A DNA stretch of 10,702 nucleotides from assembly GCA_903930515.1 (NCBI GenBank), contig CAIYYW010000055.1, positions 1-10,702 on the forward strand, given 5' to 3'. The notes below the pieces were generated by a model. It had not been told where the DNA came from. It saw only the letters and a list, made by a program, of their open reading frames with translations, and did no database searches. The position numbers and the translations under genes are program-made. Source of the DNA: an uncultured delta proteobacterium. Lineage in GTDB: Bacteria; RBG-13-61-14; DRUE01. This document shows, one piece after another, positions 5,536 to 9,684 of the stretch (its first letter is position 1; each line of letters starts with the position of its first letter).

Positions 5536-5564
5536 TTGAGCGCGGCTCCAAAGCGATCTATGAT
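5536..5564 (+). promoter_or_regulatory. Sigma70-type promoter for the sensor kinase/regulator operon, giving a leaderless mRNA
   Basis: TTGAGC (5536-5541), a 17-base spacer and TATGAT (5559-5564). Transcription should start at about 5571-5573, on or next to ATG 5573. An in-frame TAA at 5567-5569 leaves no earlier start, and no Shine-Dalgarno sequence is present. Both points agree with a leaderless transcript. No sigma54 (-24/-12) element was seen here, so the operon is not obviously controlled by its own regulator. Confidence 0.6.
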
Positions 5565-5572
5565 GGTAATCG

Positions 5573-7507
5573 ATGAGAGCTATTTACAGAAGCGAACAGC
5601 CGTGCGGATTATGCCTGAGTTGTCTGCGCGCCTGCCCGACCCAGGCGATCGCGCTCGCGAAAAAACAGTTGCTTGATGATCGTTGTATTCATTGCGGGTT
5701 GTGCGTATCCACCTGCCCGGAACAGCGTTATCAGACCGGCAACCTCCAAGAATGGGAATCGGTCCGGGCTTCTCCTCTAAATAAAATCGCCCTGGTCAGC
5801 CCCTTGCTCGCGGGCGCGTTCCTGGAATTTGATCCGGAACAGATCGCGGACGCGCTTTTTCGGCTCGGGTTCGACGAAGTGTATCTGGCGGAGTCCGGCT
5901 TTAAGCCGGTCGCGGAACGTTACCGGGAAATTTTGGAACGCAATCCCCGATCTCCGGTTATCTCCAGCCACTGCCCAGCCGCGGTCGAGTATCTCGAGAA
6001 ATTTTATCCCGACCTGACCGGGAACCTGGCCGGGGTGGTCAGCCCGGAAATCGCCGCGCTCAGATACCTGGAAGAGATTTCTAGGCCTTCTAAAATCGTT
6101 CTGATCAGCGCCTGTCCGGGCCAAAGTTATGATTTAGAAAAACGGTTCCAAACCGTGACGGCCATCACTTTCCCCGAGCTGCGCCGGATATTAGCTGAGA
6201 ATAAAATCGAGCCGGAAAAACTATCCAGGCGAAAATTCCAGGGACTGAGCCTGGACTCCGGGTCCACCCTGCTCGGCGAAGGAGACCTGGTCCGGGAGGC
6301 ATGCGGAACCGGATCGGATCAGGAGTCGGCGGGCATTTCCGCCGGGGGCCTGTCCCAGGTCCGGCAAATTTTGGACGGGATCCGGCTGGGGGAAATCCGG
6401 TCGCGGCTGGTGGAAATAAATTTATGTTCCGGCGGATGCCTGGGCAGTCCCGCGATGGCAAACCGGCTCAGCCTGCCGCAGCGAAAAGAGCGGATTATGA
6501 GTTACTTGATGTCCCGATCTGAAACCGAGCGGGTAAAACTTAGGCTGATGCCGGAATCGGCTGCGGATTTGTCCGCTCAATTCTCTCCCAAACGAATCCA
6601 GAATCCGGAGCCGTCTTCGGAAAAAATCAAGGATACCCTGTCCTCCCTGGGCCTGGGATCAGAACTGGGACTGACCAATTGCAAGTCCTGCGGGTATCCG
6701 ACCTGCCAGGAATTCGCCAAAGCCCTGATCCGGGGAGAAGCCGAGCCGAATTATTGTTTCCCGGCCTTGATCCGAAAAAACACCAAGTTTGACGAGCACA
6801 TTCTCCGTTCCGAGCGGCTGGCCAGCGTGGGCCAGATCGCGACTGCGCTGGCGCACGAGGTCAACAATCCGCTCGGCTTGGCCAGCGGTTATGCCCAGGC
6901 CATCGCCACCGATAAAAGACTGCCGGCCGAGATCAAGGAAATCGTCGAGATGATCCGGGAGGAAATCGAAATCGCCGCGTCCACCATCCAGAACCTGCTT
7001 TCGCTCTCGCGCGGACGGCCGATCAAATTCGAGCGGATCAATCTATATGAGGCGCTCTCGGCCACGCTCCGGCTGCTGGCCCCGCGTCTGGAGACCGGCG
7101 GGATCGCCCTGAAATTCAACTGCCCTCCCAACCCGCTTTTCCTGGAATGCGACCCGTACGGCTTGCAGCAGGTGTTCACCAATTTAGCGCTCAACGCCGG
7201 TCAGGCCATGCAAAGAGGCGGCACGCTTTTTATTTCCGTCCAGGCCGGGCCGGACCAGGTGGAAATAAATTTCCGAGACACCGGCGTCGGGATCAGACCC
7301 GAGCATCTTCCCCGCCTGTTTGATCCCTTCTTCACCACCAAGGCCCCGGGAGAAGGAACCGGGTTGGGATTGTCCATCGCCTATAACATCATCGAGCGGC
7401 ACCGCGGAGACCTCCGGGTGAAAAGCGAACTCGGCAAAGGAACCGAGTTCACCATCGTCCTGCCCCGGTCCCAGGCGTCACCCCAAACCCGATCTGGGGA
7501 GCGATGA
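5573..7507 (+). CDS. [FeFe]-hydrogenase-like iron-sulfur sensor histidine kinase
   Basis: 644 residues, soluble, no membrane span. Domains in order: two ferredoxin-type [4Fe-4S] sites, C11-C14-C17-C21 and C38-C41-C44-C48; an [FeFe]-hydrogenase large-subunit-like domain (about 70-312), with H-cluster loops reading S-S-H-C134-P, S-A-C181-P-G-Q and L-C285-S-G-G-C289-L-G-S-P; a four-cysteine Fe-S domain (PF04060 type, C370, C373, C378, C395); then a histidine kinase. The kinase shows the phospho-acceptor H428 in A-H-E-V-N-N-P-L, the N-box N-L-A-L-N-A-G-Q-A-M (537-546), D-T-G-V-G-I (569-574), a D-P-F-F-T-T-K segment (584-590) and G-T-G-L-G-L-S (595-601). All four cluster-ligating cysteines remain, but other catalytic residues of true hydrogenases are replaced, so a sensory role for redox state or H2 is likely (inference). 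No PAS domain lies between the Fe-S part and the kinase. Phosphotransfer to the overlapping NtrC-type regulator is expected. ATG 5573 is the only possible start. Confidence 0.88.
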   Translation: MRAIYRSEQPCGLCLSCLRACPTQAIALAKKQLLDDRCIHCGLCVSTCPEQRYQTGNLQEWESVRASPLNKIALVSPLLAGAFLEFDPEQIADALFRLGFDEVYLAESGFKPVAERYREILERNPRSPVISSHCPAAVEYLEKFYPDLTGNLAGVVSPEIAALRYLEEISRPSKIVLISACPGQSYDLEKRFQTVTAITFPELRRILAENKIEPEKLSRRKFQGLSLDSGSTLLGEGDLVREACGTGSDQESAGISAGGLSQVRQILDGIRLGEIRSRLVEINLCSGGCLGSPAMANRLSLPQRKERIMSYLMSRSETERVKLRLMPESAADLSAQFSPKRIQNPEPSSEKIKDTLSSLGLGSELGLTNCKSCGYPTCQEFAKALIRGEAEPNYCFPALIRKNTKFDEHILRSERLASVGQIATALAHEVNNPLGLASGYAQAIATDKRLPAEIKEIVEMIREEIEIAASTIQNLLSLSRGRPIKFERINLYEALSATLRLLAPRLETGGIALKFNCPPNPLFLECDPYGLQQVFTNLALNAGQAMQRGGTLFISVQAGPDQVEINFRDTGVGIRPEHLPRLFDPFFTTKAPGEGTGLGLSIAYNIIERHRGDLRVKSELGKGTEFTIVLPRSQASPQTRSGER

Positions 7508-8889
7508 CCGAGCGCGTTCTGATTATTGAGGATGAGAAACGCTGGTGCGATTTTCTCAGTCTGCTGATCCGCCAGGGCGGATGGGAGCCGCTCGCGGTCA
7601 CGGACCCGGAACAAGGCCTCCAACTCCTCTCGCAACAAGAGTTCGATTTATTGCTCACCGACCTGCGCATGCCCAAGATTGACGGGATCCAGGTTTTGAA
7701 AACGGTCAAGGCCGAAAAGCCCGGCCTGCCGGTGATCGTGCTCACGGCCTTTTCCACCGTGGAAGCCGCGATCGAGAGTATGAAGCTGGGCGCGTTTGAT
7801 TACATCACCAAGCCCTTTGACAATGAGCAGGTCCTGTCCGTGATCCGGAGGGCCTTGCGCCAGGTCCAACTGGACCGTGAAAATAATTTCCGGTTCAAGG
7901 CCCCGGAGCCTAGGGAGCGGGCCGTGAATTTGGTGGGCAAGAGCGAGAAGATGCAGGAGGTTTACAAACTGATCGGAAAGGTCGCCGCAACCAATGCCAC
8001 GGTTTTGATCCGGGGCGAAAGCGGCACCGGCAAGGAGATGGTGGCGAGGACCCTGCACCAGTCTAGTCCGCGCTCGCCGAAGCCGTTCGTGGTGGTGGAT
8101 TGTTCGGCCCTGACCGAGACCTTGCTCGAAAGCGAATTGTTCGGTTATATCAAGGGCGCTTTCACCGGCGCGGCCAATTCCAGAATCGGCCTGATCGAAG
8201 AAGCCGCCGAAGGCACTATTTTCCTCGACGAGATCGGAGACATTTCCCCGGCGGTGCAGATGGATTTGCTCAGGTTTCTTCAGAGCGGCGAGATCAAGCG
8301 GGTGGGAGACACCAAGCTGCGCAAGGTGGAGGCGAGGATGCTCGCGGCCACCAACCGGGATTTGGAAAAATTGATCGGGGAGGGAAAGTTCCGGGAGGAC
8401 CTTTATTACCGGTTGAATGTGGTGACCATTACCGTACCGCCCCTACGGGACCGGAAGGAAGACATCCCGGAGCTGACCGAGCATTTCATCCGGAAATATA
8501 ACCAGCTCGAGCGACAGCAGATCCGGGGGATCAGCCCGCCGGCGATGGAAATCCTGATGAGCTATGGCTGGCCGGGAAATGTGCGGGAGCTGGAGAACAC
8601 CGTTGCCCGGGCAATGGTGCTCTCGCGCGGGAGAGTGATCGCTTCCGAGGATTTGCCCCTAGGGATGATGGTCAAGCCGGCGCGGGCCGAGAGCGAGATG
8701 GGGTTCAAGGAGCTGAAGCGGAAATACCTGGACAATTTTGAAGCCGGCCTGCTCAAGCACTACCTGGATCGGGCGCAAGGAAATGTCAGCATGGCCGCGT
8801 CCTACGCGCGGATCCCCCGGCAGAGTTTCCACCGGTTGCTGAAAAAATATCAGATCAAAAACGCGCGTCTCCCGGAAAAAGAGGATTAG
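7504..8889 (+). CDS. NtrC-family sigma54-dependent response regulator
   Basis: 461 residues, overlapping the kinase stop by ATGA, so translation is probably coupled; GGGGAG lies just before the start but is very close (two bases). Receiver domain at 1-120: acidic residues E9-D10-E11, phospho-acceptor D53 (LLTDLRMP), T81 and K103. AAA+ sigma54-activator domain at about 143-380: Walker A G-E-S-G-T-G-K (171-177), the sigma54-contact loop G-A-F-T-G-A (218-223), Walker B T-I-F-L-D-E-I (238-244), a likely arginine finger in F-R-E-D-L-Y-Y-R-L-N (296-305), and W-P-G-N-V-R-E-L-E (356-364). A Fis-type helix-turn-helix is at about 427-449 (NVSMAASYARIPRQSFHRLL). All key residues are intact, so it should activate sigma54 promoters when phosphorylated by the adjacent kinase. 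I found no convincing -24/-12 promoter in the window, so its targets probably lie elsewhere. Confidence 0.95.
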   Translation: MTERVLIIEDEKRWCDFLSLLIRQGGWEPLAVTDPEQGLQLLSQQEFDLLLTDLRMPKIDGIQVLKTVKAEKPGLPVIVLTAFSTVEAAIESMKLGAFDYITKPFDNEQVLSVIRRALRQVQLDRENNFRFKAPEPRERAVNLVGKSEKMQEVYKLIGKVAATNATVLIRGESGTGKEMVARTLHQSSPRSPKPFVVVDCSALTETLLESELFGYIKGAFTGAANSRIGLIEEAAEGTIFLDEIGDISPAVQMDLLRFLQSGEIKRVGDTKLRKVEARMLAATNRDLEKLIGEGKFREDLYYRLNVVTITVPPLRDRKEDIPELTEHFIRKYNQLERQQIRGISPPAMEILMSYGWPGNVRELENTVARAMVLSRGRVIASEDLPLGMMVKPARAESEMGFKELKRKYLDNFEAGLLKHYLDRAQGNVSMAASYARIPRQSFHRLLKKYQIKNARLPEKED

Positions 8890-8940: not shown

Positions 8941-9684
8941 TCAGGGATGGGACTTGGCGCCCTTGATTTCATAAAGCTTGGGAAGATTCACCGGCCCGAT
9001 TTTTTTCTCCGTCTCTTTCCACCATTGCTCCCACTTGGGATAGTCGTCTCCGAAATCCTTACCGCTGATGCTTTTCAGGGCCTCCACCGCAACCCCTTTC
9101 TGCAAGGCGGATTCCTGCTTGAGCTTTTGCGCGTCTTCCGAGGTCCCGACCGTCTCCAGCGATTTGGCCAGCTTTTCCTGCTGGACCCCTTCATAATAAT
9201 ATTTTAAAACCGCGGGGACGGCCTTGAGCTCCTTGATTCGGCCCAGGGCGGTCACATAAAATTGTCGGTATTTTTTACCCTCATCCAATACCGACTTGAT
9301 CAGCTCCGGCACGGCCGGCAGTCCGATCTGGATTAACTCGTTGGTCCATTTCACGCGGTTCTGCTCGATCTGCAAAGCCTGCGCGATTTCCGGAGATGAA
9401 TCATCAGGCACCACCCGGAAATCCTGGTTATACTTGCCGTCCGCGGTATAAGGCTGCCAGCCGGGATCCTTGACCACCCGCGCCCTGGGGTTGACCATCA
9501 ACAGGTTCGGCTCCTGGTTGATCAGATCAATCAATTGCTTCACCTGCTTCTGGATTTCGGCATTCTGCGGGGATGCTTGAGCGCCGCCTCCCCGATCCTG
9601 GTTAGAGGACGGCTCTTTCGCCGGCAGGCCCGCGCTCAGGGCCAGAGAAAAAATAATCGCGATCCCCGCAACCTTAACCTTCAT
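8941..9684 (-). CDS. Exported HEAT-repeat-like protein of unknown function
   Basis: 247 residues from ATG 9684; GAAGG sits eight bases upstream. Residues 1-22 look like a Sec signal peptide: basic start MKVK, hydrophobic core to about 18, then L-P-A as a possible signal peptidase I site; no lipobox cysteine. A Ser/Gly/Gln-rich stretch follows (25-40), then helices. Residues about 112-165 have the alternating helix pattern of HEAT repeats (I-G-L-P-A-V-P-E-L-I, A-L-G-R-I-K-E-L-K-A-V-P-A-V-L). Residues 199-222 give V-E-A-L-K-S-I-S-G-K-D-F-G-D followed by W-E-Q-W-W, a module common near the end of exported HEAT proteins in environmental bacteria. HEAT folds usually bind proteins, and no catalytic motif is seen. 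It lies 17 bases after the 67-residue gene and is probably transcribed from the same promoter. Location is likely periplasmic. Confidence 0.8.
   Translation of the reverse strand: MKVKVAGIAIIFSLALSAGLPAKEPSSNQDRGGGAQASPQNAEIQKQVKQLIDLINQEPNLLMVNPRARVVKDPGWQPYTADGKYNQDFRVVPDDSSPEIAQALQIEQNRVKWTNELIQIGLPAVPELIKSVLDEGKKYRQFYVTALGRIKELKAVPAVLKYYYEGVQQEKLAKSLETVGTSEDAQKLKQESALQKGVAVEALKSISGKDFGDDYPKWEQWWKETEKKIGPVNLPKLYEIKGAKSHP

Follow-up and report, generated by a model that had tools for sequence, protein, structure and literature searches.

The annotation 'sensory [FeFe]-hydrogenase, group C' is read as a sign of H2 sensing, and the gene pair described here raises the question which signal, H2 or redox state, such a protein passes on to transcription. 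The pair lies on a 10,702-nt stretch of DNA (the window), which is the entire contig C55 of a draft genome (G000; 3.65 Mb in 401 contigs, 93.5% complete), and was compared with the draft genome of a congener (G001; 87% complete). Pfam and motifs confirmed the original prediction that a single polypeptide joins two ferredoxin clusters, an [FeFe]-hydrogenase-like domain, a PF04060 domain and a complete histidine kinase (Table 1): Fer4_10 matches aa 4-49 (3.5e-7), and the H-, G1- and G2-boxes of the kinase were all found. The AlphaFold model of aa 1-396 (pLDDT 79.5, pTM 0.80) has [FeFe]-hydrogenases as its top PDB matches (E ~1e-16). Also as predicted, the sensor gene overlaps, by an ATGA, the gene for an intact NtrC-type regulator, which matches Response_reg (2.1e-27), Sigma54_activat (5.7e-69) and HTH_8 (3.2e-5) and contains the receiver Asp53, a Walker A motif, GAFTGA (8155-8172) and a Fis-type HTH (about 8728-8850). 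An rpoN gene, whose absence would have spoken against the prediction, is present in the genome, with a Sigma54_AID match on contig C34 (8.7e-17), so that phospho-acceptor Asp, GAFTGA-bearing AAA+ domain, Fis-type HTH and rpoN, the hallmarks of an NtrC-type sigma54 regulator, are all in place. The regulator reached none of the named NCBIfam equivalogs NtrC, AtoC and ZraR (the best, AtoC, scored 441.9 bits where 714 are required, and NtrC 420.6 where 558.6 are required).

Table 1. Features of the sensor-regulator locus, in positions of the window
Feature	Position	Strand	Basis
Promoter-like TTGAGC-17 nt-TATGAT, ending 8 nt 5' of the sensor ATG	5536..5564	+	consensus match only
Hydrogenase-like iron-sulfur sensor histidine kinase, 644 aa	5573..7507	+	ORF, Pfam, congener, AlphaFold model
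Two ferredoxin-type [4Fe-4S] sites, C11-C14-C17-C21 and C38-C41-C44-C48	5603..5716	+	Pfam, alignment, motifs
H-domain PF02906 (Fe_hyd_lg_C), aa 72-293, 1.7e-28	5786..6451	+	Pfam, alignment
Diiron-pocket motif 1, VSPLL; CpI A230-P231-S232 -> S-P-L	5795..5809	+	alignment
Diiron-pocket motif 2 (L2), SACPGQS; CpI M353-P354-C355-x-x-K358 -> S-A-C-P-G-Q	6107..6127	+	alignment
PF04060 FeS domain, aa 368-397, 6.6e-12; exact Cx2Cx4Cx16C (C370, C373, C378, C395)	6674..6763	+	Pfam, motif
HisKA, aa 420-481 (8.2e-10; His428 in AHEVNNP), and HATPase_c, aa 527-633 (6.9e-27)	6830..7471	+	Pfam
NtrC-type response regulator, 461 aa	7504..8889	+	ORF, Pfam, motifs

The same overlapping pair is found in G001, with identities of 58% for the sensor part, 77% for the kinase and 82% for the regulator, indicating that the gene pair is no assembly artefact; outside these two genes no local synteny between G000 and G001 was found. 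In the congener (L041, just before position 9058) a TTGAGC-17-TAATAT occupies the equivalent place and ends 9 nt 5' of the sensor ATG, and the location of both promoter-like boxes, 8-9 nt 5' of the start codon, suggests that the transcripts may be leaderless. Elsewhere in the window, positions 523-1968 encode a 481-aa protein with an N-terminal MshEN (c-di-GMP-binding type) domain and no matched ATPase domain.

By its domain architecture the sensor is a kinase-linked relative of the group C (sensory-type) [FeFe]-hydrogenases, as one protein combines a ferredoxin domain, an H-domain, the PF04060 Cx2Cx4Cx16C motif and a C-terminal signalling domain. Group C proteins bearing a kinase ATPase domain have already been published (PMC11406978) and kinase-linked group C relatives are widespread, so that the fusion itself is not new. 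A close counterpart is provided by the Hydrogenedentota group C1 proteins, H-domain proteins with a kinase-type HATPase domain in which the authors hardly found H-cluster motifs, leaving H2 sensing open; in 21 of 53 cases these have an A3 hydrogenase as a neighbor, whereas no other [FeFe] enzyme was found in the window's genome, and, unlike them, the window sensor has a gene that overlaps that of a sigma54 regulator, and HydF and HydG were looked for and not found (PMC11406978). TmHydS of Thermotoga maritima (group C) resembles the window sensor in its ferredoxin clusters, an H-domain without C299, M353 and M497, and a C-terminal Fe-S cluster, but it ends in a PAS domain instead of a full kinase, and it keeps the diiron-holding residues, which are replaced in the window sensor, and binds the cofactor (PMC10055695). 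TamHydS (group D) has the same cluster layout including Cx2Cx4Cx16C, but carries no output domain and yields an active H-cluster after artificial maturation (PMC8163306, PMC13104023).

Alignment to CpI showed that all four ligands of the [4Fe-4S]H cubane (C134, C181, C285, C289) are retained in the window sensor. Including those of the other clusters, 16 of 16 ligand cysteines are shared with G001 although the H-domains are only 55% identical, as compared to 77% for the kinase, suggesting that the four cubanes are under selection. The low identity could also mean that the H-domain is a decaying leftover with a purely structural role, the kinase responding to another signal or being constitutive. 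Its place among the least conserved parts of the protein would fit such decay, as would the loss of the bridging cysteine in the relatives G273 and G109, but we consider it improbable given that both congeners have kept every ligand cysteine and an open frame, and that sensors with an altered pocket still have an intact output in several lineages.

We next mapped the residues of the diiron pocket by profile alignment to CpI. The equivalent of C355 is retained, and those of A230, S232, M353, P354 and K358 are replaced; the positions of A230, S232, P354 and K358 are replaced in G001 as well, and the window sensor thus lacks the complete set of residues that holds the diiron site in CpI (A230-P231-S232, P354, K358). 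Among these, K358 has a role at the distal CN ligand of CpI. S232 hydrogen-bonds the proximal CN ligand of CpI (PMC12138974), and, while M353 is often replaced in sensory enzymes, the residues hydrogen-bonding the [2Fe] cofactor are reported to be conserved there (PMC10055695).

The original prediction had proposed a search for the hydEFG maturases, which we carried out for two of the three, with TIGR03918 (HydF) and TIGR03955 (HydG), in 42 sensor-bearing genomes. HydF was found in 23 and HydG in 24 of them, whereas both were below cut-off in the draft genomes G000 (93.5% complete) and G001 (87%). Neither of these two genomes contains a second PF02906 protein, that is, another [FeFe]-hydrogenase. 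Thus, of the proposed self-contained H2 or redox switch, the iron-sulfur sensor kinase coupled to a sigma54 activator is supported, while the H2 half is not, given the replaced pocket and HydF, HydG and other [FeFe]-hydrogenases not being found. A true H2 sensor, in which H2 reduces an assembled H-cluster and the kinase relays its presence to sigma54, is therefore improbable, even though all four [4Fe-4S]H cysteines are retained, kinase-linked relatives with an intact pocket occur in HydABC/HydEFG operons, and [NiFe]-hydrogenase-type genes in the genome mean that H2 may matter to the host.

Together, the altered pocket and the failure to find HydF and HydG indicate that the sensor most likely reads redox state via ordinary Fe-S clusters and not H2. 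The explanation we favor, to which we give about an even chance, is that of a redox sensor kinase which has [4Fe-4S] clusters only, with no diiron site, and uses an [FeFe]-hydrogenase scaffold to drive sigma54-dependent transcription. Nar1/IOP1-type H-domain proteins have a hydrogenase-like fold and [4Fe-4S] clusters without a diiron site, and function in eukaryotic Fe-S assembly without a kinase; the window sensor would share the fold lacking a diiron site and differ by its kinase. The cytoplasmic protein would hold four [4Fe-4S] clusters: two of ferredoxin type, the cubane of the H-cluster, and that of PF04060 beside the kinase. Since it would have neither a diiron site nor a further domain for input, its signal would most simply be electrons from a low-potential donor, e.g. 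ferredoxin, whose reduction state would reach the clusters via the ferredoxin domain. The state of the clusters would then switch autophosphorylation of His428, in a direction that we can only infer, and the phosphate would pass from His428 to Asp53 of the overlapping regulator, which in its phosphorylated form would activate sigma54 promoters. This output is supported by the overlapping regulator gene, by rpoN and by fusions of sister sensors to sigma54 AAA+ domains. The PF04060 cluster, which adjoins the kinase, could relay the redox state. However, H2 does not reduce the C-terminal cluster of TamHydS (PMC13104023); electrons may therefore not simply be handed on through PF04060, and the coupling may be conformational.

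The same clusters might instead report their own integrity: damage to a cluster by O2, NO or iron starvation would switch the kinase with no electron input at all. NreB-type proteins, which are [4Fe-4S] oxygen sensors, provide the model for such a reading, and four solvent-reachable cubanes with conserved ligand sets would suit it. It is the main rival of the redox reading, but we regard it as less likely, since the entire hydrogenase-like chain from the two ferredoxin clusters to the H-domain cubane has been kept, which exceeds the needs of a damage sensor, and since relatives are found within hydrogenase operons.

Pocket and maturases were compared among the relatives of the sensor. Matches at E <= 1e-10 were present in 88 of 386 genomes, a count that includes catalytic enzymes, and an alignment-based scan of genome contigs gave at least 538 confirmed relatives; a contig scan with the single protein as query gave no match. 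We aligned 56 sensors and called a pocket intact if it contained 'AP[ST]' and 'PCx[AGS]K', a criterion fixed after the alignment had been seen. By this criterion, 29 of the 30 rows that come from maturase-positive genomes have an intact pocket. So do 5 of the 6 rows from genomes with a catalytic enzyme but no maturases, but none of the 13 rows from genomes with neither. Fisher tests of pocket against maturases, both of which ignore descent, gave 4e-10 by row and 3e-8 by genus. On the tree each trait requires five changes, and the number of independent pairs, 2 on starred branches or 5 on all branches, with none opposed, is too small for significance; as the tree is unrooted, it is compatible with loss as well as with late gain. 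Among the 18 genomes without HydF and HydG, 5 (G146, G301, G350, G079, G080) have strong catalytic-type PF02906 matches, and their maturases were probably missed or unassembled, whereas the 13 without such matches include a genome in a single contig (G059, 5.04 Mb) and one that is 100% complete (G310). Partial pockets occur among these 13, G148 and G285 retaining PCxxKK. The sole altered-pocket sensor of the maturase-positive genomes (L077, G380b) is a second, long-branched copy in a genome that also encodes an intact one. Altered pockets were likewise seen in three H-domain proteins that lack an output domain and are about 425 aa long (L040 in G047, L064 in G322, L067 in G136), all from genomes with neither HydF nor HydG, indicating that diiron-less forms are not confined to the kinase type.

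The surroundings of the relatives were read at 79 loci, the readable ones of the best 80 among the at least 538 relatives (L175 was unreadable). Judged by a motif rule, the sensors at 46 of the 79 end in a tail of the kinase type, and the pocket is intact at 60 and altered at 19. The catalytic-type motif TSCCP[AGS]W appears in the fetched stretch of 17 of the 60 intact but of 0 of the 19 altered loci (p 0.008, uncorrected for descent). Direct fusions of the sensor part to a sigma54 AAA+ domain, i.e. single proteins without kinase or receiver as found in Geobacteraceae and others, all have altered pockets among these loci (14 of 14, e.g. L140 of Oryzomonas japonica and L148 of Geomonas silvestris). 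The same holds for the fusions of G310 and G109, whereas those of the maturase-positive genomes G140 and G277 have intact pockets; in G140 the fusion lies directly 3' of HydG, a radical-SAM gene and HydF.

The architecture of the window, in which the genes of sensor kinase and NtrC-type regulator overlap, recurs at three Dehalococcoidia loci (L131, L132, L142). These differ by a preceding sigma54 gene (tested with Pfam at L131 and L142) and by a pocket in which only the APS motif is changed, to SSS, PCxxKK being retained. The sigma54-like proteins directly 5' of the sensor kinase are short (363-371 aa with Sigma54_DBD; 2906-3994 in L131, 2886-3998 in L142), and together with kinase and regulator they possibly form a dedicated sigma54 module. 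The L131 genes come shortly after those of a [NiFe]-hydrogenase and a maturation protease, and a Geobacteraceae fusion (L208), which was read in two frames, has a [NiFe]-hydrogenase operon as its divergent neighbor. Within the fetched stretch, a [NiFe] motif occurs at only these 2 of the 19 altered loci and at 0 of the 60 intact ones. By analogy, the sister systems point to electron metabolism, e.g. [NiFe]-hydrogenases, as a putative target.

From these relatives we tentatively propose, as a generalization that may well not hold, that bacteria have a class of H-cluster sensors without a diiron site, hydrogenase scaffolds which would have lost the H2 subsite and the maturases several times (or never gained them), kept all cubanes and coupled low-potential redox input to sigma54, with some lineages controlling [NiFe]-hydrogenases. 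Checking pocket and maturases separates sensors able to hold a diiron site from those probably unable to do so, of which the window sensor is a clear example. If the proposal is true, these natural diiron-less versions would allow a direct test of the signalling role of the other clusters, including that of PF04060, which was left open for TmHydS and TamHydS (PMC10055695, PMC13104023).

The targets of the regulator had been expected outside the window, and indeed none is visible in it, the window being the whole contig. A search for -24/-12 promoters at hydrogenase genes, as originally suggested, revealed no convincing site in the vicinity of the [NiFe] genes, either in G000 or in G001. The exact pattern TGGCACNNNNNTTGCW has 4 sites in G000 and 4 in G001, the reversed control 1 in each, and two kinds of gene have a candidate site in both congeners. 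One is an ECF-type sigma factor gene with an exact TGGCAC-N5-TTGC 50 to 70 nt upstream (L107 on G000:C312, L108 on G001:C754), making a sigma54-to-ECF cascade possible. The other is an HdrBC-like gene (CCG and Fer4_8) with a -24/-12-like site that lies about equally far upstream in both congeners (L111, about 1385, on G000:C329, with 2 mismatches; L110, about 1411, on G001:C550), which in G000 adjoins genes reading as amtB and glnK. With 8 sigma54 activator matches in G000 and 9 in G001, and with amtB and glnK as neighbors of the HdrBC-like gene, neither candidate can be attributed to the window regulator. At the end of contig G000:C138 (L213, 6535-6852), [NiFe]-hydrogenase-like genes are followed by one for a receiver-only response regulator, which shares 47-49% identity with the receiver-only proteins encoded 3' of the sensor kinase in G059 and G199.
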